A program made the translations under genes and the position numbers. Shown here piece by piece: positions 1 to 46,411 of a DNA stretch of 64,000 bases. The notes under the pieces are model-generated. The model made no database searches. It worked only from the letters and a program-made list of their open reading frames with translations, and was not told where the DNA came from. How positions within the stretch are numbered: the first letter of the stretch is position 1; the number at the start of each line of letters is the position of its first letter. This DNA is from Sediminibacterium sp. C3 (GTDB lineage: Bacteria; Bacteroidota; Bacteroidia; Chitinophagales; Chitinophagaceae). The DNA is taken from NCBI RefSeq assembly GCF_000508085.1, contig NZ_KI669560.1, positions 1,322,464 to 1,386,463 on the forward strand, written 5' to 3'.

Positions 1-1
1 T

Positions 2-337
2 TGGATCGTACGAATTGAAAGTTGGCTCTATAAACAAATCAAAGATTTTCCAGCAAAGAATAAAGCACTCCTTTATTTAATTGGGCTTGTAATTCTTGTA
101 AATATTATTGTTCCAATCATTTTCAGCACCATATTCGGACATAAACTTGCCTATCGTTCACTCGGATTATCCTTTATTAGCATTCAGTTCATCTCTTTTA
201 TTGCATTTTATTGTTACAATAAATTTCCTGAGGAAACAATTGGAAAAGATGAACCCATTCCGTCACCATGGTTACTAGAAATCCTTTTTAGTAAAAATCA
301 GAAAAAAGCCAAGCCTAATTCAACTGCGGATCAATAG
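2..337 (+). CDS. C-terminal fragment of a membrane protein (partial)
   Basis: An open frame enters from the left edge and stops at TAG 335-337, giving about 111 residues with no start in view. Two hydrophobic stretches are visible (around LIGLVILVNIIVPIIF and LSFISIQFISFIAFY), separated by a short loop, followed by a hydrophilic tail rich in Lys and Pro, so it is the end of a polytopic membrane protein. I do not recognise the family; the tail resembles the end of transporter or acyltransferase-type membrane proteins only in general character. Its 3' end overlaps the convergent yqgE gene by 23 bases. Confidence 0.6.
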   Translation, partial: WIVRIESWLYKQIKDFPAKNKALLYLIGLVILVNIIVPIIFSTIFGHKLAYRSLGLSFISIQFISFIAFYCYNKFPEETIGKDEPIPSPWLLEILFSKNQKKAKPNSTADQ

Positions 338-863
338 GGTAGTTGGTCATTTGCGCATATTCGCCGCCCAGCTGTTGTAGGCTGCGCTTCCATATTTGAT
401 GTGGCTCGTCTATAAAGAGTATGCCTGGATCTGCCTGTGTTAGAATCCAGCTTTTCTCCTCAATCTCTTCCTGTAGTTGACCACTGCTCCATCCGCTATA
501 GCCGATGAAAAAGCGAATCTGGTTTTCTGTGATTTCTTTATTGTGTAGTGCAGCTACAGCTACATCAAAATCGCCACCCCAATAAATACCTTTGGTGATT
601 TCTATCCCTTCATGAATAATATCGGGTCTGCGATGAATAAAGTGCAGGGTATGTTGTTCTACCGGACCGCCTTCGAATACCGGCAATGCTATTCCCTCTG
701 CCATTTCTACCAGATCTCCCAGGTATTGATTGGTTTTTTTGTTGAGAATAAATCCAACATCGCCCTCTTCATTGTGTTCACAGATTAACACGGCGGTTCT
801 GATAAAATTTGGATCCTTTAAAAATGGGTCCGACAATAATAGTATTCCTTTGTTTAATTCCAT
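315..863 (-). CDS. yqgE: YqgE/AlgH family protein (DUF179)
   Basis: A 182-residue protein of the YqgE/AlgH family, compact cytosolic alpha/beta proteins of unsettled biochemical role. The family signature is clear: N-terminal MELNKGILLLSDPFLKDPNF, then VLICEHNEEGDVGFILNK, FEGGPVEQHTLHFIHR, YWGGDFD and FFIGYSGWSSGQLQEEI. The ATG at 861-863 is chosen because the family motif starts there; an in-frame start 14 codons upstream would add an unrelated hydrophobic tail. Length fits the family (about 180-190 residues). It is transcribed divergently from the sensor kinase at 988 and its 3' end overlaps a convergent gene. Confidence 0.9.
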   Translation of the reverse strand: MELNKGILLLSDPFLKDPNFIRTAVLICEHNEEGDVGFILNKKTNQYLGDLVEMAEGIALPVFEGGPVEQHTLHFIHRRPDIIHEGIEITKGIYWGGDFDVAVAALHNKEITENQIRFFIGYSGWSSGQLQEEIEEKSWILTQADPGILFIDEPHQIWKRSLQQLGGEYAQMTNYPIDPQLN

Positions 864-987
864 AGGTATACAAAAGATAAGAATTTTATTTATTTTTCGG
901 AGCAATTGTTAAAAATTCTCGTTAAAAAAGTCTGCCTTTGGATAGATAGCCCCGGGTCTGGTCTTTTTCAATTTATATTTGCTCCGC

Positions 988-2313
988 ATGAAGAGAACCT
1001 TCCCCATAATCGTTATACTCATTTCACTTTCGCTCTGCGGCTTGTTTCTGTTACAGGCTTCCTGGTTTGATAACCTGATGGAAGTAACAAAGAATCAGTT
1101 GGTTGAGAAAATAAATATGGTAGGAGTGAATGTAGCTACAGATATTGGGAAGTCGACCCGATCATCTCAGCCGCTGCGTTTAAACAGACGGGGTGGCCTT
1201 TTACTGGGTACAGAATTACAAATCAAACTCTTTCGTCAGCCTACTGTTGAAGAGCGCTTCACCATGGAAGAAGTACGGGAGAAAATTTCCAAGGAATTCC
1301 AGCGGGTTAAACTAAGTAACCTGAAGTTTGAATTTGCCATCTCAGATGTGGAAGGAGACTATGAATTTTATTCTAACGGCTATGAGCAGGAGTTCTGGGA
1401 TACGGTTAACAACAAGCGAAATTATTATCCGATTCTGCGGGAAACAGATAACCTGGCTTTGAATGAAACCAACGAGTTGTTGATTATTATTGTTCCTGAT
1501 GTTGATAAGCAGGTTTGGTATTCGCTTCGCTGGATCCTGGTTGGCGCCATTACTTTCTTCCTGATTATTTTGGCCGCTTTCTATGTAACGGTAAAGACCT
1601 TATTGAATCAGAAAAGATTATCACAAATTAAAAGTGATTTCATCAACAATATGACCCATGAGTTCAAGACGCCGCTGGCAACTATTTCGCTGGCAGTGGA
1701 TGCACTCAGGAGTCCTAAAGTGCAATCCAATCCTGAAAAGGGGGCCTACTTTACCAATATTATTAAGGAAGAAAACATCCGCATGAACAAACATGTGGAG
1801 ACCATTCTGCAGGCTGCATTTTTAGAGAAGCAAGAACTGAATCTGAATCTTTCTAAAGTATCTGTTCATGAAATGGTGCAAGAAGTGGCTGGTACTTTTG
1901 AACTGCAATTGCAGGATAAAAATGGTCAGATTGATTTTCTGCTGAATGCTTCCAATGATAGCATCAGTGCCGATGATACGCATTTCAGAAACATGCTTTC
2001 TAATTTGATTGACAATGCTATTAAATATTCTCAGGATCCGGTTCGCATTGTGATCTCTTCGCATAGCACCCGTAATCATTTTGTTATGCGCATTCAGGAC
2101 AATGGAATTGGCATGAACAAAGAATCTGTGAAAAGGATTTTTGAGAAATTCTATCGCGCACATACCGGTAACCTGCACAATGTAAAAGGATTTGGTCTAG
2201 GCATGAGTTATGTGAAAACAGTGATTGATGCCCACAAGGGAAAAATCAAAGTGGACAGTGCAGTAGGAAAGGGAACTTCCTTTACCATTGAAGTGCCGCT
2301 CATGCAGGATTAA
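988..2313 (+). CDS. membrane sensor histidine kinase
   Basis: A 441-residue two-component sensor kinase. A membrane helix sits at about residues 4-22 and a second at about 178-202, bracketing a periplasmic sensor domain of about 150 residues with no recognised fold. The HisKA dimerisation box NMTHEFKTPLATIS carries the phospho-acceptor His at about residue 224. The ATPase domain shows the N box (LSNLIDNAIKYS), G1 (DNGIGMN) and G2 (GFGLGMSY). All key residues are intact. No response regulator lies next to it, so it is an orphan in this window. ATG 988 is preferred over an in-frame TTG at 979. A Bacteroidota-like -7 element, TATATTTG (974-981), lies just before the start and could give a very short leader or none. 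Confidence 0.88.
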   Translation: MKRTFPIIVILISLSLCGLFLLQASWFDNLMEVTKNQLVEKINMVGVNVATDIGKSTRSSQPLRLNRRGGLLLGTELQIKLFRQPTVEERFTMEEVREKISKEFQRVKLSNLKFEFAISDVEGDYEFYSNGYEQEFWDTVNNKRNYYPILRETDNLALNETNELLIIIVPDVDKQVWYSLRWILVGAITFFLIILAAFYVTVKTLLNQKRLSQIKSDFINNMTHEFKTPLATISLAVDALRSPKVQSNPEKGAYFTNIIKEENIRMNKHVETILQAAFLEKQELNLNLSKVSVHEMVQEVAGTFELQLQDKNGQIDFLLNASNDSISADDTHFRNMLSNLIDNAIKYSQDPVRIVISSHSTRNHFVMRIQDNGIGMNKESVKRIFEKFYRAHTGNLHNVKGFGLGMSYVKTVIDAHKGKIKVDSAVGKGTSFTIEVPLMQD

Positions 2314-2336
2314 TATTGTAAGCAGTAAATTTTCTT

Positions 2337-3638
2337 TTACTTGTTAACCCAAAGAATGGATCCATCCCCATAAGAAAGGAAACGATAGTCATGTGTTAAT
2401 GCATACTCGTAGATTCTTCTCCAATCGTCTCCCACAATAGCTGAAATCAATAACAGCAATGTGCTTTGTGGTTGATGAAAATTAGTTACCAATGCACGGA
2501 TCATTCTGAATGTATATCCTGGAGCAATGATGATTTGTGTTTTCGTAATGATGCGTTCTGCATTGTTTTTGTCCATCCATTGCAAAAGTGCAGTCAGCGA
2601 TTCTTCGGCAGAATATTCTTTTTTCTTACCAGAATTTTCTGCAGCATTTTCATAAGGCTCCCACTGTGAAACAGCTAAGTCTGCGGATGCCAAAGAAGGA
2701 TTATGAATGGTCTTAACGCCAATCCAGTAAAGGCTTTCCAGTGTACGCAGCGATGTTGTTCCCACCGCTATAATGCCTTTGGATACATGCGCAAGCAACT
2801 GTTCTATGGTTGATTTTTTTACATCAATAAATTCTGCATGCATTTCATGATCCTTCATCTGCGCTGCTTTCACGGGTTTGAATGTGCCGGCACCTACATG
2901 CAACGTAACGTATCCTTTTTGAATTTGCTTTTGCTCTAATTGCGCAAACACGTTTTCTGTAAAATGCAGACCCGCTGTGGGTGCTGCAACAGAGCCATCG
3001 TGCTTTGCATAAATGGTCTGGTATCTTTCCTTATCCGCTTCTTCTGTTTCTCTGTTTAAATAGGGAGGAAGTGGAATGTCTCCTGCCATATGCAATACCT
3101 CCGCGAAGCTTAACCCAGCTGGCTCCCAGCTGAATTCAATTAAGAAACAATCGGGCAGTATTTCTACTTTATTCGCAAGAATTTTTAACCCTTCTACCTC
3201 GAGAACAACCGCCCCTTCCTTCCACTTTTTTGCTCCCCCTACCAAACACTTCCATTGCACAGAACCCTTTTGCAGCATGGCTGAAGTGATATCTGCATAC
3301 TGGTCTGCGGGCTCTAAACAAAAGAGTTCAATAGCTCCACCCGTAGGTTTCTGAAACAACAATCTGGCTTCTACCACTTTGGTATCATTGAATACCAGCA
3401 GGCTACCCTGGGGGAGTTCATCCGCTATGTTCGCATAGATCGACTCCCGGATTGGGGTTTGATTGGTTGAATTAAGACCGGAATCTGACGTTTGCGGTTC
3501 CAATCCCCCCGAAAAACCTGGTCCCCCGTAGATCAGGAGCTTGCTCTGATCCCGCTGTTCCAGCGGATATTTGGCAATTTTCTCGTTCGGGAGCTCGTAA
3601 TTGAAATCTTCTATATGCAGGTTTGACGGGTGTTTCAT
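2337..3638 (-). CDS. queA: S-adenosylmethionine:tRNA ribosyltransferase-isomerase
   Basis: QueA transfers and isomerises the ribosyl part of SAM onto preQ1-modified tRNA, the penultimate step of queuosine synthesis. Recognisable blocks are FNYELPNEKIAKYPLEQRDQ, LVFNDTKVVEARLLF, VAAPTAGLHFT, VTLHVGAGTFKPV, GTTSLRTLES and the C-terminal LVTNFHQPQSTLLLLISA. At 433 residues it is longer than the usual 340-360. The extra length lies in a Gly/Ser/Thr-rich insert after the first motif (about residues 38-66) and a second insert before the C-terminal block. ATG 3636-3638 is chosen because the QueA motif begins close after it; a GTG at 3657-3659 is possible. It diverges from mraZ across the regulatory interval 3639-3848. 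Confidence 0.93.
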   Translation of the reverse strand: MKHPSNLHIEDFNYELPNEKIAKYPLEQRDQSKLLIYGGPGFSGGLEPQTSDSGLNSTNQTPIRESIYANIADELPQGSLLVFNDTKVVEARLLFQKPTGGAIELFCLEPADQYADITSAMLQKGSVQWKCLVGGAKKWKEGAVVLEVEGLKILANKVEILPDCFLIEFSWEPAGLSFAEVLHMAGDIPLPPYLNRETEEADKERYQTIYAKHDGSVAAPTAGLHFTENVFAQLEQKQIQKGYVTLHVGAGTFKPVKAAQMKDHEMHAEFIDVKKSTIEQLLAHVSKGIIAVGTTSLRTLESLYWIGVKTIHNPSLASADLAVSQWEPYENAAENSGKKKEYSAEESLTALLQWMDKNNAERIITKTQIIIAPGYTFRMIRALVTNFHQPQSTLLLLISAIVGDDWRRIYEYALTHDYRFLSYGDGSILWVNK

Positions 3639-3651
3639 GCGATTTTCATTG

Positions 3652-3694
3652 TTATTCACGGCTTATCCACAGCAATTCACAGGTTATACAGTGC
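3652..3694 (+). promoter_or_regulatory. tandem DnaA-box-like array
   Basis: Four repeats of about 11 bases follow one another without gaps: TTATTCACGGC (3652), TTATCCACAGC (3663), AATTCACAGG (3674) and TTATACAGTGC (3684). The second contains a perfect DnaA box TTATCCACA, the first matches TTATnCACA at 8 of 9, and the last two are degenerate. Helical-turn spacing would put bound DnaA on one face of the DNA. That DnaA binds here is inference from the consensus. Confidence 0.6.
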
Positions 3695-3752
3695 CTTTAA
3701 TGCCATTTCTTCTGGAACGCAAGATAGGAAAGGATTGTAGCCGCTTTAATCT

Positions 3753-3761
3753 TGTGGATAA
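3753..3761 (-). promoter_or_regulatory. perfect DnaA box, inverted
   Basis: TGTGGATAA is the exact complement of the DnaA box TTATCCACA. It faces the tandem array 60-100 bases upstream in the same queA-mraZ interval. A further 8-of-9 match, TTATTCACT, lies at 3839-3847 directly before the mraZ start codon. Confidence 0.55.
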
Positions 3762-3786
3762 ATACAAGACCCCCATTTTTGGGTTA

Positions 3787-3826
3787 AAAGTGGGAAAAAG
3801 TGTTATTTTGTGTCAACAAGTGGTAA
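3787..3826 (+). promoter_or_regulatory. MraZ operator: four 10-bp GTG repeats
   Basis: Four repeats with an exact 10-base period lie 23-62 bases before the mraZ ATG: AAAGTGGG (3787), AAAGTGTT (3797), TTTGTGTC (3807) and CAAGTGGT (3817). The GTG core is invariant at 3790, 3800, 3810 and 3820. Known MraZ sites are TGGGN repeats with a 10-base period in E. coli and AAAGTGKK-type repeats in mollicutes, and both patterns fit. The array probably mediates autoregulation of the dcw operon by MraZ. Confidence 0.72.
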
Positions 3827-3848
3827 ACTTGGAAATATTTATTCACTT

Positions 3849-4313
3849 ATGATCGGATTTCACGGAGAATATGAAGCAACGGTAGACGCCAAAGGGCGTT
3901 TCCTCCTTCCGGGCGGGCTGAGAAAGCAATTGCCTGAAGGAGAGTCGCGCTTTATTCTGGGTCGTGGGTTCGAAAAATGTCTCACGCTGTATCCGATCAA
4001 AAGTTGGGAACTCATTATTTCTAAGATTAGCCAGTTAAATGATTTTGATCCAAAAGTACGTCAATTCAGACGTCAGTTTTTGGGAGGTGCTACCGAGATT
4101 GAACTGGATGCGGCCGGCAGAATGTTATTGCCTGCTTCATTAAAAGAATTCGCGGGCCTTTCCAAAGACATTGTACTTGCTGCCGCCATGGACCGTTTTG
4201 AAATCTGGGATGCAGCGAAGTACAAACAGCTCTTTGAGGATTTCTCAGCGGAGGCTTTTAGTAGCCTGGCGCAGGAAGTGATGGCAGAGGCAGATAAAAA
4301 ACAAGATAAATAA
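3849..4313 (+). CDS. mraZ: MraZ transcriptional regulator of the dcw cluster
   Basis: A 154-residue MraZ/SpoVT-AbrB-like protein. It shows the two characteristic half-repeats: GEYEATVDAKGRFLLPGGLR near the start and GGATEIELDAAGRMLLP in the second half, the DxxGR elements that contact DNA in the MraZ ring. The ATG at 3849 is chosen because the family begins with MIGFHGEYEA; an in-frame upstream ATG at 3810 would run through the operator repeats. It is the first gene of the dcw cluster, 4 bases before rsmH. MraZ normally represses or modulates its own operon by binding repeats upstream of itself, and such repeats are present at 3787-3826. Confidence 0.95.
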   Translation: MIGFHGEYEATVDAKGRFLLPGGLRKQLPEGESRFILGRGFEKCLTLYPIKSWELIISKISQLNDFDPKVRQFRRQFLGGATEIELDAAGRMLLPASLKEFAGLSKDIVLAAAMDRFEIWDAAKYKQLFEDFSAEAFSSLAQEVMAEADKKQDK

Positions 4314-4317
4314 TAGC

Positions 4318-5235
4318 ATGGAAAAAATACCTGCTAACGATTATCATGTTCCGGTGCTCTACCACGAAACCCTGGATGCGTTGCATATTGTTCCGGATGG
4401 AATTTATGTTGACTGCACTTTTGGTGGGGGTGGTCATAGCAGGGGGATTCTGGAAAAGCTGGGGCCCAATGGCAGACTGATTGCATTTGATCAGGATGCA
4501 GATGCGCAACAGAATATTCAGAACGAACCTCGTCTCTTATTCATTCCGCAAAACTTTCGTCACCTGCATCGCTTTCTGCGTTTGCATGGAATAGATCAGG
4601 TAGATGGCGTATTGGCGGATCTGGGTGTAAGTTCTCACCAGTTTGATGAAGGGGAGCGTGGTTTTTCTATTCGCTTCGAAGGTCCGATGGACATGCGGAT
4701 GGATAGAAGACAAACCCTTACAGCTGCCGACATTATTAAAACCTATTCTGAACAACAGTTGCACAAATTGTTTGAACAGTATGGGGAAGTAACCAACGCC
4801 AAAACCCTTGCTGCGCATATTGTTCAGCAGAGAGTCCGCTTACCGTTTGCAACGATTGATCAATTCAAAGCATTGATTAGTGCAGTGGTAAAAGGAAATC
4901 CCAATAAATATTTAGCCCAAGTTTTTCAGGCGCTCAGGATTGAAGTGAACGATGAGATGGGAGCGCTGAAAGAAATGTTGGAGCAGCTAACCAAAGTGTT
5001 GAAACCCGGAGGAATTGCTGCCATCATTACTTTCCATTCACTGGAAGACAGATTGGTGAAAAACTTTTTCAAGCAGGGAACTTTTGAAGAAGTAGTTGAT
5101 CATCCACTCTTGTCGATTGAGAAACCAAAGCATTTTCAACTGGTGAATAAGAAGCCAATTACGGCTGGTGCTGAAGAGTTGAAAAGAAATAGCAGAAGTA
5201 GAAGCGCAAAGCTGAGAGCAGCAGCGCGCTTGTAA
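4318..5235 (+). CDS. rsmH: 16S rRNA (cytosine(1402)-N(4))-methyltransferase
   Basis: RsmH (MraW) methylates N4 of C1402 in the ribosomal P site of 16S rRNA. The 305-residue protein has the usual length and order: YHVPVLYHETLDAL, the SAM-binding loop VDCTFGGGGHSRGIL, VLADLGVSSHQFDEGERGFS, GPMDMRMD, then QVFQALRIEVNDE and ITFHSLEDRLVKNFF near the C-terminus. ATG 4318 lies 4 bases after the mraZ stop, and the order mraZ-rsmH-ftsL-ftsI is the conserved start of the dcw cluster. Nothing is unusual. Confidence 0.97.
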   Translation: MEKIPANDYHVPVLYHETLDALHIVPDGIYVDCTFGGGGHSRGILEKLGPNGRLIAFDQDADAQQNIQNEPRLLFIPQNFRHLHRFLRLHGIDQVDGVLADLGVSSHQFDEGERGFSIRFEGPMDMRMDRRQTLTAADIIKTYSEQQLHKLFEQYGEVTNAKTLAAHIVQQRVRLPFATIDQFKALISAVVKGNPNKYLAQVFQALRIEVNDEMGALKEMLEQLTKVLKPGGIAAIITFHSLEDRLVKNFFKQGTFEEVVDHPLLSIEKPKHFQLVNKKPITAGAEELKRNSRSRSAKLRAAARL

Positions 5236-5245
5236 TATATATACC

Positions 5246-5557
5246 GTGCCCGAAAACAAAACAAACCCTAAGAACCCAATTAAGGGGTTGCTCAACTATG
5301 AGTGGATAGTGAAGAACATTGGTTTCTTCCTTTTTCTATCCCTTTTAGCAGTACTGTATATAGCCAACGGACATATGGCTGATAAAACCATACGTCGTAT
5401 CAATAGCATCAATAACGAATTAAAAGAATTGCAGTTTACCTACAAGACTTTAAAGAGTGAGTTGATGTACAAAACCGAAGAGTCGCAGATTGTGAAACTG
5501 GTAGAACCCATGGGGTTAAAAATAAGTAAGGAAATGCCTGAGCGCATTCAGAAATAA
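5246..5557 (+). CDS. ftsL: FtsL-like cell division protein
   Basis: A 103-residue bitopic protein: a short cytoplasmic N-terminus, one membrane helix (about residues 26-44, NIGFFLFLSLLAVLYIANG), then a periplasmic coiled coil (INSINNELKELQFTYKTLKSEL). Size, topology and position between rsmH and ftsI identify it as FtsL, which scaffolds the FtsQLB and FtsWI complexes; the sequence itself is poorly conserved. The start is GTG at 5246. The stop overlaps the ftsI ATG by one base (TAATG), so the two are probably translationally coupled. Confidence 0.85.
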   Translation: MPENKTNPKNPIKGLLNYEWIVKNIGFFLFLSLLAVLYIANGHMADKTIRRINSINNELKELQFTYKTLKSELMYKTEESQIVKLVEPMGLKISKEMPERIQK

Positions 5558-7668
5558 TGGAAGTAAAACGCGACATACTATGGAGAGTGTACCTCAGTTA
5601 TATACTGATGGTAGCTGCCTGTATCGCCATCTTTGGCAAAGCGGTTTACATTCAACAGGTAGAGGGTGCCAAGTGGAGAAGCATGAGTGATAGTTTGCAT
5701 CAGCGCATTGATGAAATTGAAGCAGAGCGTGGTACCATCTATTCCGAAGACGGTCAGATGTTAAGTACTTCTATTCCGCAGTTTGATATTTTCATTGATT
5801 TCCGCGTTGCGGGATTAAGAGAGAAGAACGGACAGCGGTTCAGAGAGAATATAGATTCTTTGAGTTATTGTTTGGCACAACTCTTCAAGGATATGAGTCC
5901 GGTGGAATACAAAAGAGTATTGCAGCAGGCGTACAAAGCGCAGGAAGGATATTTTCCACTGAAGAAAAAAATCAGTTTTACGCAGTACGATTCTTTACGC
6001 AAATTTCCTTTGTTTAAACTGGGTCGTTACAAAAGCGGTATGATTGCCAATGAGCGCACGGTTCGCCTGAATCCTTATCAGATGCTGGCTTTCAGAACCA
6101 TTGGTCTGGCCCGTGATTCTAATAAAGTGGGTTTGGAAAAAACCTACGATGCAGTTTTAAAAGGAAGAAACGGTAAGCAGACTGTTCGTTCCATTGCAGG
6201 TGGAGTTGGCGTTCCTGTGGATGATACTTACCTGGTAGAACCAGAGACGGGTAAAGATATTGTGAGCACCATTGATGTATTTATTCAGGACATTGCTGAA
6301 GCAGCTTTGATGAAAATGATGGTGAAGAACGAAGCGGAAAATGGTTGTGTAATTGTAATGGAAACCAAGACCGGAAAAGTAAAAGCCATTGCCAATCTGG
6401 GCAGAATGCCCGATGGCTCTTACTGGGAAAATTTAAACCATGCGATTACACCCAGCGAACCCGGATCTACTTTTAAGCTGGCCACATTAATGGCTTTGCT
6501 GGAAGACAAGAAAGTAAACCTGAATCAAACCATTAACCTGGAGAACGGTGCATGGAGAATTGCAGGTCAAACCGTGTATGATTCTGAAAGACATGCTGAG
6601 AATATTGTAACCGTAAAGCAGGCTTTTGAATTGAGTTCGAATGTAGCCATGGCTAAAATGGCGGTTACGCATTACCTGAATAATCCGCAGCAGTACCTGA
6701 AGCATTTGCGTAAGATGCGCATGGATACCATTACAGGAATTGATTTGGTAGGAGAGCGCAGGCCGGTGATTCATCGTCCGGGTTCTAAATTATATGGTCC
6801 TACCACTTTGCCCTGGATGAGCTTTGGATATAACCTTGCCATCAGTCCATTGCATACGGCTATGTTATACAATGCGGTTGCGAATAACGGAGTAATGATG
6901 CGTCCTTATTTGGTTAGCAGCATTAAAGAAGAAGGGGTGTTGTTGAAAGAAATTCCACCAGTGGTTTTAGATACGCAAATCTGCAGCCCAACAACACTTG
7001 CAATGTTGAAAGCCAGTCTGGAAGGGGTTTGTATTTCAGGTACGGCCAAGTCTTTGTTTGCTGGCACACCTTATAAAGTAGCGGGTAAAACAGGAACGGC
7101 GTTGGTGGCAGATGGCAACAGAGGATACAGCAGTAAAATTTATCAGAGTTCATTTGCCGGATATTTTCCTGCTGATAATCCGCAATACACTTGTGTAGTA
7201 GTAATTAAGAACAAACCTTTTGCTCCTGTATTCTATGGCGCTGCTGTGGCAGGGCCGGTGTTCAAGGAAATTTCGGATCGTTTGTATGGCACTTATATCA
7301 AGACCAATAAAACCCTGATTGCAGGATCCAATAAAAAGGACAGCAGCTTCTTTGCCTATAACGGATACAAGGCAGATTTGATGTACCTGACTGAAAAATT
7401 AAAAATTGGTTTTTCAGATTCTACCGGAAGAGCAGATGAGTGGACCCGTGTAAATAAGAACAGTGCGAAAGCAGTACTACAAAAAATGCCGGTGAATAAA
7501 AATGCCATGCCTCCGTTGAAAGGCCTGGGATTAAAAGACGCTATTTATCTCTGCGAAGAAATGGGATTGATGGTGCAGGTGAAAGGAAGAGGAAAAGTAA
7601 CAGAGCAGTCGATTGTTCCAGGACAGCCGATTGCAAAAGGACAACTGGTGCAACTTTACCTGAATTAG
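5557..7668 (+). CDS. ftsI: division-specific peptidoglycan transpeptidase (PBP3-type) with PASTA domain
   Basis: A class B penicillin-binding protein of 703 residues that crosslinks septal peptidoglycan with FtsW. The single N-terminal membrane anchor is at about residues 11-30. A pedestal domain follows, then the transpeptidase domain with its catalytic motifs in order: SxxK in PGSTFKL, SxN in FELSSNVAMAK and KTG in VAGKTGTALV. The last 60 residues or so form a single PASTA domain (PPLKGLGLKDAIYLCEEMG and following), which in this family binds peptidoglycan or regulates activity. The start overlaps the ftsL stop. It is followed by a 58-base gap before murE. Confidence 0.95.
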   Translation: MEVKRDILWRVYLSYILMVAACIAIFGKAVYIQQVEGAKWRSMSDSLHQRIDEIEAERGTIYSEDGQMLSTSIPQFDIFIDFRVAGLREKNGQRFRENIDSLSYCLAQLFKDMSPVEYKRVLQQAYKAQEGYFPLKKKISFTQYDSLRKFPLFKLGRYKSGMIANERTVRLNPYQMLAFRTIGLARDSNKVGLEKTYDAVLKGRNGKQTVRSIAGGVGVPVDDTYLVEPETGKDIVSTIDVFIQDIAEAALMKMMVKNEAENGCVIVMETKTGKVKAIANLGRMPDGSYWENLNHAITPSEPGSTFKLATLMALLEDKKVNLNQTINLENGAWRIAGQTVYDSERHAENIVTVKQAFELSSNVAMAKMAVTHYLNNPQQYLKHLRKMRMDTITGIDLVGERRPVIHRPGSKLYGPTTLPWMSFGYNLAISPLHTAMLYNAVANNGVMMRPYLVSSIKEEGVLLKEIPPVVLDTQICSPTTLAMLKASLEGVCISGTAKSLFAGTPYKVAGKTGTALVADGNRGYSSKIYQSSFAGYFPADNPQYTCVVVIKNKPFAPVFYGAAVAGPVFKEISDRLYGTYIKTNKTLIAGSNKKDSSFFAYNGYKADLMYLTEKLKIGFSDSTGRADEWTRVNKNSAKAVLQKMPVNKNAMPPLKGLGLKDAIYLCEEMGLMVQVKGRGKVTEQSIVPGQPIAKGQLVQLYLN

Positions 7669-7726
7669 ACAAAGAAAATAATACGCGACACAAACAAAAC
7701 AAACTAACTGAAATAAAACAAACCCA

Positions 7727-9190
7727 ATGAAAACGCTACAGCAACTTCTTATTCAAACCAAAACGCAGCAGGTAACTGGTGCCTTGAATAAGGACATTAC
7801 TGCCATTGAGATCGACTCAAGGAAAGTGAAAGCTGGTGCTGTATTTGTTGCCATTACAGGAGCACAGAGCGATGGCCATGCTTTTATTGGTAAAGCTATT
7901 GAGTTGGGTGCGGTTGCCATTGTTTGCGAAAGCCTTCCTGCTGAGCTTGATGCTGCGGTTACTTATATTAAAGTGGCCAGCAGTGGAGAAGCAGCTGCGC
8001 GCATGGCAGTTGAGTTTTATAATCATCCTTCTGCAGAAGTAAAGCTGGTGGGTGTTACGGGTACCAACGGTAAAACCACCATTGCTACTTTATTATTCAA
8101 GTTGTTCCGTCAGTTAGGGTATAGTTGTGGCTTAATCAGTACGGTTCAGAATCAGATTGATGATACTATTATTCCGGCTACGCATACCACACCCGATGCC
8201 ATCAGCCTGAATGCCTTGTTGCGCAAAATGGTGGACGAGGGTTGCTCTTATGTTTTTATGGAGTGCAGCAGTCATGCCATTCATCAGCACCGCATTACCG
8301 GATTGCAGTTCAACGGTGCTTTGTTCAGTAATATCACACACGATCATTTAGACTATCACAAAACTTTTGATGAGTATATCCGTGTAAAGAAAAAATTCTT
8401 TGATGATTTATCTGCTGATGCATTTGCCATCTCTAATGCTGATGATAAACGCGGAGAAGTGATGTTGCAGAATACCAACGCTACTAAATACTTGTACAGC
8501 CTTAAAACCATGGCTGCTTTCAAGGGAAAAATATTAGAAAATGCATTGACAGGTTTGGTGATGACCATCAATGACCAGGAAGTGCATTTTCGTCTAATTG
8601 GAACATTCAATGCCTACAACTTACTGGCGGTGTATGGTGCGGCCGTTTGTTTGGGTGTTGAAAGTTCAGAAGTACTAACTGCATTAAGCATGCTTACCGG
8701 TGCAGAAGGCCGCTTCGATTATATCATCAGTGCCAACAATATCATTGGTATTGTAGACTATGCACATACCCCCGATGCATTGGAAAATGTATTGAGCACC
8801 ATTAAAAAATTGCGCAAGGGCTACGAGCAAATCATCACAGTGGTAGGTTGTGGTGGAGACAGAGACAAAACAAAACGTCCTGTAATGGCGCAGGCAGCCT
8901 GCGACTGGAGCGACCGCGTGATTTTAACCAGTGATAATCCCCGCACGGAAGACCCTGAAGCTATTCTGCGCGATATGGAAGAAGGACTGAGCAGTGCGGC
9001 AAAAAGAAAGTATATCACCCTGGTAGATCGCAAGCAGGCAATTGAAGAAGCAGTAAGAATGGCCAAGCCGGAAGACATTATTCTGGTGGCCGGAAAAGGA
9101 CACGAGAAATACCAGGACATCAATGGAGTGAAACATCCTTTTGACGATAAAGAAGTTTTACAAAAAGCATTTACCACCATTACCCAATAA
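7727..9190 (+). CDS. murE: UDP-MurNAc-tripeptide synthetase (meso-DAP adding)
   Basis: MurE adds the third stem-peptide residue to UDP-MurNAc-L-Ala-D-Glu. The 487-residue protein has the Mur ligase order: N-terminal UDP-binding domain (ITAIEIDSRKVKAGAVFVA), the ATP loop VTGTNGKTTIATLL, the central domain with HTTPDAISL and FSNITHDHLDYH, and the C-terminal domain. The motif SDNPRTEDP contains DNPR, the signature of meso-diaminopimelate-specific MurE, so the cell wall is predicted to be DAP-type. It lies 9 bases before mraY. Confidence 0.96.
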   Translation: MKTLQQLLIQTKTQQVTGALNKDITAIEIDSRKVKAGAVFVAITGAQSDGHAFIGKAIELGAVAIVCESLPAELDAAVTYIKVASSGEAAARMAVEFYNHPSAEVKLVGVTGTNGKTTIATLLFKLFRQLGYSCGLISTVQNQIDDTIIPATHTTPDAISLNALLRKMVDEGCSYVFMECSSHAIHQHRITGLQFNGALFSNITHDHLDYHKTFDEYIRVKKKFFDDLSADAFAISNADDKRGEVMLQNTNATKYLYSLKTMAAFKGKILENALTGLVMTINDQEVHFRLIGTFNAYNLLAVYGAAVCLGVESSEVLTALSMLTGAEGRFDYIISANNIIGIVDYAHTPDALENVLSTIKKLRKGYEQIITVVGCGGDRDKTKRPVMAQAACDWSDRVILTSDNPRTEDPEAILRDMEEGLSSAAKRKYITLVDRKQAIEEAVRMAKPEDIILVAGKGHEKYQDINGVKHPFDDKEVLQKAFTTITQ

Positions 9191-9199
9191 ACCCATACT

Positions 9200-10516
9200 A
9201 TGTTATATCAATTATTTAACTGGCTAAAACAAAGCTTCGATATTCCCGGAGCCGGGCTGTTTCAGTTCCTGACTTTCAGGATTGCAATGGCGATTGTATT
9301 GAGCTTGGTAATTGCAACAGTGTATGGAAAACGCATCATTCTGTTTTTACAGAAAAAGCAAATTGGGGAGTCGGTAAGAGATTTAGGATTGGCGGGTCAG
9401 GAGCAGAAGAAAGGAACTCCTACCATGGGCGGTATCATTATTTTGCTGAGCATTCTTATTCCAACCTTATTGTTTGCCAATTTAGATAAAGTATATGTGC
9501 GACTGATGGTACTTTGTACGGTTTGGTTGGGTATCATTGGCTTTCTGGACGACCTGTTTAAAATTCGCGCCAGAAAAGCAGCACAACAAAAAGGCGAAAC
9601 CTATAAGAAAAAAGATTCTGATGGATTGGCCGGTATCTCTAAAATTATTGGTCAGGTAGGATTGGGAATCATCATTGGTACTACCCTTTATTTCAGCAAT
9701 GCCGTAACGGTAGAAAGAGAAATTATTGGTTCTGCGCGTAAAGTTTCTATGTTGCAGGAAGGAGAAAGATTTGCGAAAGATTCAACCATTATTGTTCGTC
9801 AAATAAATGGATTGGAAAGAAAATTCGTGAAAGTAAAAACGCCCATCACTACCATTCCTTTTGTAAAGAACCATGAGTTCAATTACAGCAAGCTGATCAG
9901 CTGGATGGGAGAGGGTGCAGAGAAATATACCTGGATTGTGTACATCCTGATTGTGACCCTGATTATTACTGCTGTTAGTAACGGTGCCAACCTTACAGAT
10001 GGATTGGATGGATTGGCTGCCGGTGTGAGTGCCATTATTGGTGCGGGTTTGCTGGTATTCATCTATGTAAGTTCCAACTACATTTTTGCCGATTACCTGA
10101 ACATCATGTATATCCCGAACCTGGGTGAGCTCACCATTTTTGTGGGTGCATTCGTAGGGGCTTGTATTGGATTCTTATGGTACAATGCATTTCCTGCTCA
10201 GGTATTCATGGGCGATACGGGCAGCCTTGCACTGGGTGGCATTATTGCTTCCTTAGCCATCATTGTAAGAAAAGAATGGTTGATTCCTATTTTCTGTGGC
10301 GTGTTCCTGGTAGAAAATTTAAGTGTGATGATTCAGGTAGGATACTTTAAGTACACTAAGAAGAAATACGGTGAAGGAAGAAGAGTGTTTTTAATGAGTC
10401 CATTGCATCATCACTATCAGAAGAAAGGATTTCATGAAAGCAAGATTGCGGTTCGTTTCTGGATTGTAACCATCATGCTGGTGGTAATGAGTGTAGTATC
10501 CTTAAAAATCAGATAA
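9200..10516 (+). CDS. mraY: phospho-MurNAc-pentapeptide transferase with extra loop
   Basis: MraY makes lipid I by transferring phospho-MurNAc-pentapeptide to undecaprenyl phosphate at the inner membrane. Family motifs are present: [57 protein letters not shown], and the HHHYQKKG block near the C-terminus. At 438 residues it is about 75 longer than the usual 360. The excess is mainly a hydrophilic stretch at about residues 166-233 between two membrane helices, lying between the DDLFK and NLTDGLDG motifs. Active-site Asp residues are intact. It lies between murE and murD with gaps under 10 bases. Confidence 0.95.
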
Positions 10517-10522
10517 AAGAAA

Positions 10523-11863
10523 GTGAGTAATAATATTATCATATTAGGCGGAGGCGAAAGCGGAGTAGGTGCGGCTGTATTGGCCAAGCACAAGGGGCTG
10601 AACGTATTCCTGTCCGACGGTGGCTCACTCAAGGAAATTTACAAAGCGGAACTGCGCGCGAACGGAATTGAATTTGAGGAAGGCGGTCATAGCGAAGAGA
10701 GAATTTTAGCGGCAGACGAAGTGGTTAAGAGTCCAGGCATTCCGGAAAAGAATGAATTGGTGAAATCCATTCGTGCCAAAGGTATTCCGGTGATCAGTGA
10801 AATTGAATTGGCTTATCGTTACAAAGGGGATAGCAAAATTATTGCCATCACTGGCAGCAATGGCAAAAGCACCACTACGGCTTTAATTTATCATATCTGC
10901 AGAACGGCAGAACTGGATTGTGCCATGGTGGGGAATATTGGTTATTCATTTGCCCGTCAGGTGGCAGAAGACCCCAAACCGCTCTACATTATTGAAATCA
11001 GTTCTTTTCAATTAGATGATATTAAAACCTTCCGACCCAATGTAAGCGTATTGCTCAATATTACGGAAGACCATTTAGACCGTTACAATTATGTGTTCGA
11101 CAATTATATACGGTCTAAGTTTCGCATCATCGAAAACCAGACCGATGAGGATTTCTTCATCTTCTGTTTAGACGACGAAGTGATTCAGCAAAAACTCCCA
11201 TTACTAACTATCCATACTAACCCACTACCATTCTCTATGAAACAAGAAGTAAAAAAAGGCGGCTACATCAAGGGCGACCAGATGATGCTGCGCATCCAGG
11301 AAGAAAGAGTAAGCATGAGCATTTATGATTTTGCCCTGAAGGGTAAGCACAACCAGTACAACACAATGGCAGCGGGTATTGCAGCAGCAACCATTGGCAT
11401 CCGAAAAGAAAAGATCAGGGATGCTGTAAAGAACTTCCATAGCCTGGAGCATCGCATGGAGTTTGTTGCAATGGTTCGCGGCGTTGAATTTATCAACGAC
11501 AGCAAAGCCACCAATGTAAACAGTACCTGGTACGCGTTGGAGAGTATGAATAAGCCAACGGTTTTAATTCTGGGTGGTGTTGACAAAGGAAACGACTACA
11601 CATTAATAGAAGAACTGGTAAAGGAAAAAGTGAAAGCCATTGTTTGTATGGGAACAGACAACAGCAAAATCATTGAAGCTTTTAAAGATATTGTTCCAAC
11701 CATCATTGAAGCAGACAGTGCCAAGAAAGCGGTGAATGCTGCCTTCAGAGCTGCCGGTAAAGACGAAGTGGTTTTGTTAAGCCCTGCCTGCGCCAGCTTT
11801 GATTTATTCAAGAACTACGAAGACAGAGGAACCCAATTTAAAGAAGCTGTTAAGGAATTATAA
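10523..11863 (+). CDS. murD: UDP-N-acetylmuramoylalanine--D-glutamate ligase
   Basis: MurD adds D-glutamate to UDP-MurNAc-L-Ala. The 446-residue protein starts with a Rossmann-like domain (NNIIILGGGESGVGAAVLA), followed by VKSPGIP, the ATP loop AITGSNGKSTTTALI, EISSFQLDDI, LNITEDHLDRY, and the C-terminal ligase domain with NDSKATNVNSTWYAL and LILGGVDKGNDY. The start is GTG at 10523; no ATG fits the N-terminal motif. The stop overlaps the ftsW ATG by one base (TAATG). Confidence 0.96.
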   Translation: MSNNIIILGGGESGVGAAVLAKHKGLNVFLSDGGSLKEIYKAELRANGIEFEEGGHSEERILAADEVVKSPGIPEKNELVKSIRAKGIPVISEIELAYRYKGDSKIIAITGSNGKSTTTALIYHICRTAELDCAMVGNIGYSFARQVAEDPKPLYIIEISSFQLDDIKTFRPNVSVLLNITEDHLDRYNYVFDNYIRSKFRIIENQTDEDFFIFCLDDEVIQQKLPLLTIHTNPLPFSMKQEVKKGGYIKGDQMMLRIQEERVSMSIYDFALKGKHNQYNTMAAGIAAATIGIRKEKIRDAVKNFHSLEHRMEFVAMVRGVEFINDSKATNVNSTWYALESMNKPTVLILGGVDKGNDYTLIEELVKEKVKAIVCMGTDNSKIIEAFKDIVPTIIEADSAKKAVNAAFRAAGKDEVVLLSPACASFDLFKNYEDRGTQFKEAVKEL

Positions 11864-13227
11864 TGTCTGAAATAAAAGATACCCTTTTTTCTCAAATCCC
11901 CTCGGTAGATGGGGTACGCAAGCAATTGCTTACCCGTACCCGTGGTGATAAGTACATCTGGGGTATTGTATTGATATTGTCCCTTATTTCAATTCTGGTA
12001 GTGTATAGTGCCACGGGATCTCTGGCATATAAAACATACAAGGGCAATACCAATATCTATTTATTTAAGCAGCTGTCTTTCTCTATGCTGGGGTTAATCA
12101 TCATGTATTTTTTGCATCGGGTTAACTATACTTTTTTCTCGCGGGTAGCCACTATCTTGTTTATGTTATCTATTCCTTTATTGTTGTACACATTGTTTTT
12201 TGGTGCAAGAATTAATGAGGGAAGCCGCTGGATTAAATTACCCATCATCAACCTTACTATTCAGACCAGTGACTTTGCCAAGCTGGCTTTGTTCATGTAC
12301 ATTTCTAAAATGCTGAGCAAAAAGCAGGAAGTAATTAAGGATTTTAAAAAAGGATTCCTTCCTGTGGTGTTACCGGTAATTATTATTTGCGCATTAATTA
12401 TGCCTGCTAACTTATCGAATGCCTTGTTAACGGGTGCAACTTCTTTGTTGCTGATGTTTATTGGCAGGGTAAGCTTTAAACATATTTTACTCACCATTAT
12501 GGTAGCCCTGATTCCTGTGGCTATTATTGTTTCGGTGGCCGTGCTTTCCTATGATGGTAAAAAATCGGAAGATATTGCAAAGCCTGCAGTGGCTGAGAAA
12601 ATGAAATCGATGGGTCGTGTCGGTACCTGGGTTAAAAGGGTACAGGACTTTATGTACGCCAAAGACAGTGAAGTGCCTTATCAGGTGCAGCAGGCCAAGA
12701 TTGCCATTTCGAATGGAAGTGTATTAATTGGATTAGGACCAGGCAATAGTCAGCAGCGTAACTTTTTGCCACAAGCCTATAACGACTTTATTTATTCTAT
12801 CATCATTGAAGAATATGGTTTGCTGGGCGGGGCTTTCATGATATTTATTTATCTGGTCTTTCTGTTCCGGTGCATTAGTATTTTCCGGCGATGCCCTTAT
12901 GCATTTGGTGCATTTCTGGCGCTGGGACTAAGCTTTACCCTGGTGATACAGGCGGTGGCTAATATGGCCGTGAATGTGAACCTGGTTCCTGTTACCGGGG
13001 TTACGCTTCCGTTGGTGAGTATGGGAGGATCTTCCTTTCTGTTTACCTGTGCGGCCATTGGCATTGTGTTGAGTGTGGGCCGAAACGTAGAACAACTGGA
13101 AGGAAAAGCTCCGATAGAAACAGGAGTGGCTCCTGTGGATACAACACCGGTAAGTGTTGCTGCTGTTGCAGCAAGCGGTGCAGTTACCAACTCTTTTCAA
13201 AATCAAAATCCTCGCGCGAATGGCTAA
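11863..13227 (+). CDS. ftsW: FtsW-type SEDS peptidoglycan polymerase
   Basis: FtsW polymerises lipid II into glycan strands at the septum together with FtsI. This is a 454-residue polytopic SEDS-family protein with about ten hydrophobic segments. Recognisable are VVYSATGSLAY, FGARINEGSRWIKL, QTSDFAKLALFMY, IGLGPGNSQQRNFLPQAYNDFIYSIIIEEYG (residues spread over that block) and the C-terminal TLPLVSMGGSSFLFTCAAIG. An Ala/Val-rich hydrophilic tail of about 45 residues follows the last helix. The end overlaps the start of murG by 8 bases. Confidence 0.95.
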   Translation: MSEIKDTLFSQIPSVDGVRKQLLTRTRGDKYIWGIVLILSLISILVVYSATGSLAYKTYKGNTNIYLFKQLSFSMLGLIIMYFLHRVNYTFFSRVATILFMLSIPLLLYTLFFGARINEGSRWIKLPIINLTIQTSDFAKLALFMYISKMLSKKQEVIKDFKKGFLPVVLPVIIICALIMPANLSNALLTGATSLLLMFIGRVSFKHILLTIMVALIPVAIIVSVAVLSYDGKKSEDIAKPAVAEKMKSMGRVGTWVKRVQDFMYAKDSEVPYQVQQAKIAISNGSVLIGLGPGNSQQRNFLPQAYNDFIYSIIIEEYGLLGGAFMIFIYLVFLFRCISIFRRCPYAFGAFLALGLSFTLVIQAVANMAVNVNLVPVTGVTLPLVSMGGSSFLFTCAAIGIVLSVGRNVEQLEGKAPIETGVAPVDTTPVSVAAVAASGAVTNSFQNQNPRANG

Positions 13228-14308
13228 TCGATTTATTATAGCAGGTGGAGGTACAGGTGGACATATATTTCCCGCCATTGCCATTGCCAATGCAATTAAA
13301 CATGTGCAGCCCAGCTCTCAGATTTTATTTATTGGGGCCAAGGGAAAAATGGAAATGGAGAAAGTACCACAAGCGGGTTACGAAATCAATGGCCTGGACA
13401 TTGCAGGTTTTAACAGAAGCTCTTTACTTAAAAATATTTCCCTGCCCTGGAAACTCGTCAAAAGTTTTGTACAGGTCAGAAGCATTTTTGCCTCCTTTCA
13501 ACCCGATGCGGTAATAGGGGTGGGTGGTTATTCTACTTTCCCGGTTTTAAAATATGCACAGAGCAAAGGTATTCCCACATTTATTCATGAAGCCAACTCC
13601 TTTGCGGGAAAGAGCAATATGATGCTGGGAAAAAAAGCCACGAAAATTTTTGTTGCTACGCCTGGCATGGAGCGTTTTTTTCCGGCAGAAAAAATACTGG
13701 TGTCTGGCAATCCGGTTCGTGATATTATTGTGCGCAACGCTATTCAAAGAGAAGAGGCGCTTCGCTTCTTTAAACTGGATCCTGATAAAACAACCGTATT
13801 GGCTGTGGGTGGTAGTCTGGGTGCGGCCAGCATCAACAATGCCTTGATGGAACAGCTGGATGAATTTGGCAAAAACGATTTGCAATTGATTTGGCAAACG
13901 GGCAAAACCAATAGTGAAGTATATAAAAATGCGGCTGCTAAATACAACAATGTATGGGTTGGCGAATTCATTAACCAGATGGAATATGGCTATGCAGCTG
14001 CCGATATGGTTATCAGCCGTGCGGGAGCAATGGCCGTTACCGAATTGTGCATCACAGGTAAAGTGGCCATCCTGGTTCCTTATCCGCATGCAGCAGAAGA
14101 TCACCAAACGGCCAATGCCATGCAATTGGTGAATAATAGTGCTGCCATTTTAGTGAAAGATGAAAAAGCAAAAGCGGATCTGGTAAAAGAAGTAGTGGCC
14201 ATTTCCAAAGAAGTAATGAAACAGGAAGAAATGAAAGCGGCCATTCGCAAACAGGCTTTGCGCAACGCTGCTGATTTTATAGCTAAAGAAATTTTACAAT
14301 CCTTGTAA
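13220..14308 (+). CDS. murG: undecaprenyldiphospho-muramoylpentapeptide GlcNAc transferase
   Basis: MurG converts lipid I to lipid II by adding GlcNAc on the inner face of the membrane. The 362-residue GT28 protein begins RFIIAGGGTGGHIFPAIAIA, with the glycine loop typical of MurG, and continues with VGVGGYSTFPVL, FIHEANSFAGKSN, VSGNPVRDII, LAVGGSLGAASINNAL, and the acceptor-donor site ISRAGAMAVTEL with PYPHAAEDHQTANA. ATG 13220 is chosen because the motif starts four residues later; the frame is open further upstream, inside ftsW. Its last base overlaps the murC start. Confidence 0.96.
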   Translation: MANRFIIAGGGTGGHIFPAIAIANAIKHVQPSSQILFIGAKGKMEMEKVPQAGYEINGLDIAGFNRSSLLKNISLPWKLVKSFVQVRSIFASFQPDAVIGVGGYSTFPVLKYAQSKGIPTFIHEANSFAGKSNMMLGKKATKIFVATPGMERFFPAEKILVSGNPVRDIIVRNAIQREEALRFFKLDPDKTTVLAVGGSLGAASINNALMEQLDEFGKNDLQLIWQTGKTNSEVYKNAAAKYNNVWVGEFINQMEYGYAAADMVISRAGAMAVTELCITGKVAILVPYPHAAEDHQTANAMQLVNNSAAILVKDEKAKADLVKEVVAISKEVMKQEEMKAAIRKQALRNAADFIAKEILQSL

Positions 14309-15678
14309 TGAGCAAATTAACTACCATACAAACCATTTACTTCATAGGAGTCGGAGGCATTGGTATGAGTGCCATTGCGCGTTATTTTTTGTCGAGGGGC
14401 GCCAATGTGAGTGGTTACGATAAAACACCTACGGTGCTTACGAATCAACTGGAGAAGGAAGGAATACAAATTCACTATACCGATGATATCACATTGGCGC
14501 CACAGCAGCCCGATGTGGTGGTGTACACACCTGCTATTCCGAAAGACCACAAAGAGTTGAATCATTTTATTAATAACGGTTTCACGGTGATGAAGCGCAG
14601 TGATATTCTGCAATGGATTACCGAAAACAGTTTCAATATCTGTGTGGCAGGTACACACGGTAAAACAACGGTTACCTCAATGGTGGCCCATTTGTTGCGC
14701 CATACCGGTTATGGTTGCAATGCTTTTCTGGGTGGCATTTCCGCTAACTATCATACCAATTTCTGGAGCCACGAACGCAATGTGGTGGTGGTGGAAGCCG
14801 ATGAATACGATCGTAGTTTTTTAAAGCTGGCACCGAATGTAGAAGTGATTACTTCCATGGATCCAGATCACCTGGATATTTATGGTACTGCTGAAGAAGT
14901 AGAAAATGCCTTTGTTCAGTTTGCAGGAAAATTAAAACCGGGTGGAACCATCGTTGCCAAACATGGGTTGAGCAGAGCCGCCGAGTTACGCGCTAATCAC
15001 TTGTTTACCTATGATCACCAAAACGAGGCGGCGGATATTTTTGTAAAAGACCTGAAAGTGGTAAATGGTGTTTATCATTTTTCTGTTCAGGCCCCTGACT
15101 GGTCTATTGATAACCTGGTATTGCATATGGGTGGCCTGCACAATATCGATAACATGATTGCAGCCATTACAGTTGCCAAACAGTTGGGTATTGATGCGGA
15201 TAAAATTGTTGCGGCGGTTGCCGATTACAAGGGTGTCCGCAGAAGATTTGAATATGCATTGAATACACCGGCACATGTGTTGATTGACGACTATGCGCAT
15301 CACCCCGATGAGCTGAAAGCTTTGTTGTCTGGTGTTAGAAGCATTTTCCCCAATAAGAAATTAACCCTGGTTTTTCAACCGCATTTGTATAGCAGAACCA
15401 AGGATCAGGCCGCAGGGTTCTCTGCTACACTTGACCTGGCAGATGAAGTGATTTTATTGCCCATTTATCCGGCAAGAGAATTACCCATGGAAGGAGTAAA
15501 CAGTGAAATGTTGCTGAACAATATGCAGTTGAATCAGAAGCAGGTATTAGAGAAGGCCGCTTTTCTGGATTGGGTAAAAACCACTCAACCGGAACTATTG
15601 GTAATGGCGGGTGCCGGCGATATTGATACCCTCGTGAATCCTGCGAAAGAACTATTAATGAATCATCCGCTTTTATAA
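14308..15678 (+). CDS. murC: UDP-N-acetylmuramate--L-alanine ligase
   Basis: MurC attaches the first stem amino acid, L-alanine, to UDP-MurNAc. The 456-residue ligase has IYFIGVGGIGMSAIARYFL at the N-terminus, the ATP loop VAGTHGKTTVTSMVAHLL, VVEADEYDRSF, ITSMDPDHLDIYG, and GVRRRFEY followed by LIDDYAHHPDELKA in the C-terminal domain. Length and motif order are normal. It overlaps murG by one base and lies 3 bases before ftsQ. Confidence 0.97.
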   Translation: MSKLTTIQTIYFIGVGGIGMSAIARYFLSRGANVSGYDKTPTVLTNQLEKEGIQIHYTDDITLAPQQPDVVVYTPAIPKDHKELNHFINNGFTVMKRSDILQWITENSFNICVAGTHGKTTVTSMVAHLLRHTGYGCNAFLGGISANYHTNFWSHERNVVVVEADEYDRSFLKLAPNVEVITSMDPDHLDIYGTAEEVENAFVQFAGKLKPGGTIVAKHGLSRAAELRANHLFTYDHQNEAADIFVKDLKVVNGVYHFSVQAPDWSIDNLVLHMGGLHNIDNMIAAITVAKQLGIDADKIVAAVADYKGVRRRFEYALNTPAHVLIDDYAHHPDELKALLSGVRSIFPNKKLTLVFQPHLYSRTKDQAAGFSATLDLADEVILLPIYPARELPMEGVNSEMLLNNMQLNQKQVLEKAAFLDWVKTTQPELLVMAGAGDIDTLVNPAKELLMNHPLL

Positions 15679-15681
15679 CCC

Positions 15682-17906: not shown

Positions 17907-17945
17907 AACCCGAACCTTAATCCCTACTAACCCAAACCGTCCACT

Positions 17946-19841: not shown

Positions 19842-19844
19842 TAT

Positions 19845-46382: not shown

Positions 46383-46411
46383 GACCAAGTAGTGCGACCT
46401 TTTGGTTGCTT

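Follow-up and report, generated by a model that had tools for sequence, protein, structure and literature searches.

Judging from its sequence, the gap between queA and mraZ in Sediminibacterium sp. C3 is probably a two-part control region of mraZ and the dcw cluster, made of a MraZ operator and of upstream DnaA boxes through which DnaA would regulate the cluster beside MraZ. The coordination of division with replication is a long-standing question in bacteria and, to our knowledge, little is known about it in Bacteroidota. A DnaA site beside the MraZ operator over many families offers a concrete candidate for a replication-division link, consisting of two 9-base sites, and the conservation of this element suggests a direct connection between the start of replication and the production of division proteins.

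Composition of the queA-mraZ gap

The window analyzed here is a stretch of 64,000 nucleotides (G000:C4:1322464-1386463) from a genome of 3.22 Mb in 4 contigs, of which C4 has 3,216,888 bases. The gap itself (3639-3848) separates two divergent neighbours, queA and mraZ (Table 1). The MraZ protein shares 100% identity over 153 residues with that of Sediminibacterium salmoneum NBRC 103935, and an Rfam scan of window positions 1-20000 returned no match. An open reading frame at window positions 46406-47416, ~27 kb past the downstream end of the dcw cluster, was recognized by eye as an IS30-like transposase.

We scored DnaA boxes as matches out of nine to TTWTNCACA, the consensus as given in PMC7561715; by this consensus test the gap holds two 9/9 and two 8/9 boxes. 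The first-pass annotation had described four head-to-tail 11-base repeats, one of them perfect and one 8 of 9, followed by an inverted perfect box at 3753 and by another 8 of 9 match at 3839, directly before mraZ. All of these boxes are real and score as described (3663-3671 and the minus-strand 3753-3761 at 9/9, 3652-3660 and 3839-3847 at 8/9), with two small corrections: the steps of the tandem row are 11, 10 and 11 bp rather than 11 throughout, and the box at 3839-3847 is located in the short leader, one base from the ATG at 3849. This last box may be leader sequence only.

Table 1. Features of the queA-mraZ region (window positions) and of the oriC candidate (contig positions); x/9 gives matches to TTWTNCACA.
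Feature	Position	Strand	Details
queA	2337-3638	-	NCBIfam TIGR00113 above cut-off; ATG at 3638; longest ORF starts with GTG at 3659
Outer DnaA-box-like repeat	3652-3660	+	TTATTCACG; 8/9
Perfect DnaA box, core of the array	3663-3671	+	TTATCCACA; 9/9
Second box of the tandem pair	3673-3681	+	CAATTCACA; 7/9; 10 bp on from the 3663 box
Outer DnaA-box-like repeat	3684-3692	+	TTATACAGT; 7/9
Inverted perfect DnaA box	3753-3761	-	TTATCCACA; 9/9
MraZ-type operator	3789-3824	+	GTGGG/GTGTT/GTGTC/GTGGT at 3790, 3800, 3810, 3820; exact 10-bp period
Putative -7 promoter element	3824-3831	+	TAAACTTG; match by eye, one mismatch to TAnnTTTG
Box in the short leader	3839-3847	+	TTATTCACT; 8/9; one base before the mraZ ATG
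mraZ	3849-4313	+	NCBIfam TIGR00242, 127 bits vs cut-off 98.35; ATG at 3849; first dcw gene
Remaining dcw cluster, rsmH to ftsZ	4318-19841	+	rsmH by NCBIfam; others by eye from the ORF list
oriC candidate (L024)	596,659 to ~597,135 (596.7-597.1 kb), G000:C4		AT-rich gap flanked by nadA (NCBIfam) and, by eye, a ppiD-like gene

Two exact boxes at such close range had been judged unlikely by chance, and the numbers bear this out: at genome density, the Poisson chance of two TTATCCACA in one given 196-bp interval is ~5e-7 and, by an arithmetic estimate, still ~1% for any interval of the genome. The perfect box TTATCCACA occurs 16 times in the 3.22-Mb genome, two of these in the gap (26 for the reversed control pattern), and the TTATNCACA form lacks genome-wide enrichment (98 vs 87 controls). 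Defining an array as at least 3 boxes, each 7/9 or better and one 9/9, spaced 10-12 bp apart, we found such rows in the mraZ gap and, among 940 kb examined elsewhere in the genome, at two more places, the dnaB promoter and the oriC candidate. A scan of 977 kb with a 200-bp span ranked the mraZ gap as the top box cluster, with a score of 9 in our own scoring.

Between the inverted box and mraZ lie direct repeats of the GTGG type with a 10-bp period, for which the MraZ-operator test was positive. The promoter element at their end was picked out from TAnnTTTG, which we take to be the Bacteroidota -7 consensus, and the MraZ repeats likely overlie the mraZ core promoter. The operator is the most conserved stretch of the whole gap, with AAAGTG[GT] in 78/78 related loci (from the best 80 of 222). 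It resembles the MraZ site of Mollicutes, which also consists of direct repeats before mraZ (AAAGTG[T/G], core AAAGTG; PMC8475190); however, neither for that operator nor for the E. coli MraZ boxes (Eraso 2014, cited in PMC8475190) are adjoining DnaA boxes described in the relevant passages of this source.

Conservation of the boxes in related loci

For closely related loci we used the best 80 of 222 from titled records, reduced to 78 by dropping two that were too short (L349, L380); all counts in this section come from this set. The inner tandem pair and the inverted box are kept at 7/9 or better almost everywhere (78/78 for 3663, 77/78 for 3673 and 78/78 for 3753) and, at 8/9 or better, the 3663 box is still present in 77/78 loci and the inverted box in 78/78. 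The box at 3839 reaches at least 7/9 in 65/78 near relatives, and the outer repeats are weakly kept, with at least 7/9 in 29/78 (3652) and 39/78 (3684). The alignment of related gaps that had been proposed as a check on the 11-base array thus bears out the inner tandem pair and its spacing to the inverted box, but not the outer repeats.

An exact inverted box (TTWTNMACA, at most 45 bp from AAAGTG[GT]) was found in 69/78 loci, an exact forward box upstream likewise in 69/78, and both together in 61/78; permuted motifs gave means of 1.5 and 1.8 of 78 loci for those exact-box counts. One permuted motif reached 73/78 in the inverted window, where it probably reads the same conserved stretch. The geometry is nearly fixed: wherever the patterns found both elements, the inverted box lies 37 bp before the MraZ operator in 72/73 loci, and the distance from forward to inverted box is 90-93 bp in 64/65. 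By the test of promoter conservation in relatives, the result for the boxes was positive. Seven of the 78 loci had no queA in the available flank (800 bp in five of them, 303 and 567 bp in the other two), yet each of the 7 retains the forward box, so that the boxes belong with mraZ and not with queA.

Occurrence throughout the Bacteroidia

Same-genus matches came from 29 relatives plus the genome itself. At the levels of family, order and class we collected 80 mraZ upstream regions of our own choosing, comprising 20 of 22 order-level matches, with the weak matches G037 and G057 left out, and 60 of at least 184 further genomes with a match, among the places listed. Around a MraZ-operator anchor placed mechanically, an exact TTWTYMACA occurs at -110 to +12 in 59/80 regions, against a mean of 2.2 and a maximum of 28 for 500 permuted motifs, this maximum coming from TTWTYCAMA, a near-copy of TTWTYMACA. 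In the narrower span of -45 to +6 the count is 47/80 (permuted mean 0.9, maximum 22), and a weaker excess is seen at -300 to -110 (15/80 vs a permuted mean of 2.2 and a maximum of 16). An exact box near the operator is absent in 21/80 class genomes, a few of which have near-boxes.

The arrangement varies with the lineage. The box abuts the operator in many families (AGTTTTCAACAAAGTGGT...), and elsewhere it is inverted and ~12-40 bp off; outside the genus, there are usually one or two exact boxes near the operator. A strict scan recovered the direct composite of box and operator in 159/396 genomes vs 8 with the reversed pattern, and the inverted composite in 66/396 vs 18, the control counts being taken by eye from tables and not all of the composite places being confirmed as lying before mraZ. 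These strict patterns undercount, since the window's own genome escapes them.

Identity of the motifs

Three lines say that the motifs of the mraZ gap should be DnaA boxes: a match to the core of the oriC candidate, the box form in a second genome (G233), and perfect boxes before replication genes. Concerning the first, the mraZ core TTATCCACAGCAATTCACA (3663-3681) is identical at 18/19 positions to the core of the oriC candidate, TTATACACAGCAATTCACA, and no further core of this kind occurs in the window or in 940 kb of other stretches (~1.0 Mb). A match between mraZ boxes and the oriC of the same genome was thus obtained in Sediminibacterium sp. C3 (18/19 core) and in G233 (box form), both oriCs being predictions.

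The match outside the family comes from this one genome, G233. Its mraZ box is TTATCAACA, of the TTWTYAACA form. Its skew turns at ~2.542 Mb, with later local reversals, and its top box cluster lies at 2.547 Mb, between rpiB and rnr (by eye), with a score of 19 vs 11 for the next in 366 kb scanned. At this place, 750 bp are 79% A+T and contain five exact TTWTYAACA and zero TTWTYCACA. As a general oriC the rpiB-rnr gap was rejected, the cluster being present only in G233 among 30 loci read. The motif TT(T/A)TCAACA has been proposed for mollicutes, according to a review whose passage on oriC doubts its generality (PMC3322544). Tandem TTWTCAACA pairs were tried as well and rejected: five of eight genomes have them, 9 in total vs 3 for the reversed control, and several of these pairs are coding. 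One such pair lies, by eye, just before dnaN in G233 (L202, G233:C1 ~1271264), where the boxes of mraZ and of the oriC candidate are also of the AACA form.

Two further references were tried and set aside. Upstream of dnaA, TTWTNMACA boxes are present in 11/31 genomes (9/16 for one box type and 2/15 for the other) and lack a fixed position, for which reason the dnaA promoter was rejected as a box reference; there was no sign of a conserved autoregulatory array upstream of dnaA in the 31 genomes. The base-recognition residue T435 of E. coli DnaA (PMC7561715) corresponds to S/T in 15/16 genomes with CCACA-type mraZ boxes (Ala in 1/16) and to Ala in 13/15 with AACA-type boxes. We dropped this correspondence as proof, as it is confounded by phylogeny and has exceptions (G241, G079, G118).

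A probable replication origin elsewhere

As an alternative, the first-pass annotation had suggested that the gap forms part of an origin, with GC skew as a check, and this alternative finds no support. Sampled in the window and in 40 stretches of 20 kb, skew is negative from ~2.06 Mb round to ~0.58 Mb; over the remaining arc it is mostly positive, apart from local reversals. The mraZ gap, at 1.326 Mb, lies inside the positive arc; the local turn is at ~581 kb, beside nadD, ybeY and mnmG (by eye), 745 kb away. Near this turn, GTTCCAC/GTTTCAC-type repeats lie upstream of mnmG, itself assigned by eye, and may be a divergent parS region (L113, ~583.09-583.17 kb of G000:C4). The Bacillus-type parS palindrome was discarded as a marker: every site that it gave had 2 mismatches, and the control yielded more of them (15+15 vs 10+10), so that it served as a pointer to 583-586 kb only.

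About 15 kb from the skew turn, the gap before nadA is likely the chromosomal oriC. It is 69% A+T and contains ~ten box-like sites of at least 8/9, a tandem array, and a trio-like TAATAGTAGTAG at 597,089. It runs from 596,659 to 597,294 if its end is set by this genome's own open frame; the nadA frame starts ~50-80 codons earlier in seven same-genus genomes than in the window genome, and the true gap is probably <500 bp, with the last box (597,141) coding. At least 2 tandem boxes occur at a similar place and on the same strand in the nadA gap of 6/7 same-genus genomes (G017, G011, G010, G033, G027, G036), with no tandem boxes in that of G021; nadA was not found in 5/12 same-genus genomes queried. 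In the genus, both box forms are present in the oriC gap. A short array is present in the nadA gap of 1/3 other genomes of the family. Outside the family the nadA gap was rejected as an oriC, since none of the 12 order-level loci read showed a box cluster there.

That the mraZ gap is itself a replication origin, or part of one, is therefore very improbable. It does have a helically phased row of DnaA boxes as in origins, over 200 bp its score exceeds that of the oriC candidate (9 vs 7), and it is common in Bacteroidetes for oriC and dnaA to lie far apart (PMC4755523); here dnaA is at 1.397 Mb, away from the oriC candidate. However, of the tests for an origin only that for a box cluster was positive, and those for a skew minimum and for the lack of a better candidate were negative: skew is mostly positive on both sides, from ~0.58 to 2.06 Mb, and the nadA gap scores higher over 300 bp (11 vs 9) and 500 bp (14 vs 9), in addition to its trio-like motif and the tandem boxes of its same-genus counterparts. 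A DnaA box fitted to the phylum, TTWTYMACA, would help in locating origins and targets of DnaA in genomes that have dnaA far from oriC.

Possible mechanism and alternative explanations

The other half of that first-pass claim, a proposed link between replication and dcw expression through DnaA, is well supported, because the boxes are conserved, their core matches the oriC candidate at 18/19 positions, and other genes, among them replication genes, carry perfect boxes. DnaA would bind the tandem pair, whose members are in helical phase, together with the inverted box 90 bp away, a spacing that would permit a loop or DnaA-DnaA contact. By its level or nucleotide state, the initiator would then set dcw transcription: MraZ would repress at its own repeats and DnaA would modulate the same promoter, making dcw output track initiator activity. 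We lean towards activation as the effect of DnaA, a guess from position, because the boxes lie upstream of the putative promoter and not over it.

The DnaA-like motif might instead serve a different transcription factor, or MraZ by way of an extended operator. The tight association of the motif with the MraZ operator would fit, as would the TGTGGA that contains part of the GTGG half-site; yet GTGG is missing from the TTWTYAACA form, the box can face either way and its distance from the operator varies, the mraZ core nearly equals that of the oriC candidate, and the same perfect box also fronts dnaB, gyrA and nrdJ, where inspection by eye revealed no MraZ-type repeat. We thus hold this explanation to be unlikely. 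Somewhat more doubtful still is a site for titration or reactivation of DnaA, of the datA or DARS type, that merely happens to be located here. Several boxes in one non-origin gap at a mid-replichore position are what such a site might look like, but titration would not need a box kept beside the MraZ operator across families, and outside the genus no more than one or two exact boxes are usual; the conserved promoter position speaks against this as the main role. Chance matches in AT-rich intergenic DNA, to which the lack of genome-wide enrichment of the TTATNCACA form might point, are hardly credible given the conservation and fixed spacing over 78 loci (from the best 80 of 222) and the controls with permuted and reversed patterns.

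The presence of DnaA at division genes is already known from Bacillus and Caulobacter. In Bacillus subtilis, the promoter region of ftsL, a division-gene promoter, is occupied by DnaA in vivo (Goranov et al. 2005, via PMC8203912; PMC11019786), with a proposed link to replication status (PMC8203912); on replication arrest, RsmH and PbpB of the ftsL operon were at wild-type-like levels, FtsL itself having escaped detection (PMC11019786). The mraZ gap differs in belonging to another phylum and in its DnaA-box array beside a MraZ operator, which the passages of these sources do not describe for ftsL. Caulobacter crescentus DnaA activates ftsZ, mipZ and gcrA (PMC8203912), and the initiator is thus a transcription factor of division genes there, as proposed here for the mraZ gap; however, it acts at ftsZ and others, and the review has 0 occurrences of mraZ. 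In E. coli, too, there are DnaA boxes near division genes, situated in ftsQA ahead of ftsZ, but these were shown to have no part in ftsZ transcription (PMC8203912), a warning against inference from boxes alone. By title and start of abstract, we found no report of DnaA boxes beside a MraZ operator in the open-access literature on DnaA, mraZ, dcw, oriC and Bacteroidetes, and this arrangement appears to be new.

Other perfect boxes in the genome

Apart from the two in the mraZ gap, the genome has 14 perfect TTATCCACA boxes, 7 of them intergenic by mechanical ORF calls. Four of these 7 precede genes for dnaB, gyrA, a gyrB/parE-type protein and nrdJ, assigned from protein fragments that end at the edges of the stretches and score below full-length cut-offs. 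The remaining three belong to genes with no evident replication role: one is before an lptG/lptF-type gene, one at a gene pair (L387) and one at a short gap (L394). The dnaB promoter resembles that of mraZ in bearing tandem DnaA boxes in an 11-bp array (L383, G000:C4:983163-985163, 820-1160), and the gyrB/parE-type and nrdJ boxes sit between divergent genes. These boxes may mark a possible DnaA regulon.

If so, DnaA and the division repressor MraZ would share a composite dcw control region throughout the Bacteroidia, within a regulon that here also takes in dnaB, gyrase/topoisomerase and ribonucleotide reductase; we consider it an evenly balanced question whether this amounts to a hard-wired, lineage-wide circuit between replication and division.

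The boxes before gyrA and the gyrB/parE-type gene are single perfect copies of TTATCCACA (L389, L390). Upstream of nrdJ (L393), a second site, TTATACACA, lies 56 bp from the perfect box. At L395 (G000:C4:456988-458988), a gene matching the C-terminal part of DnaB-type helicases has TTATGCACA and TTATTCACA 38 bp apart upstream.
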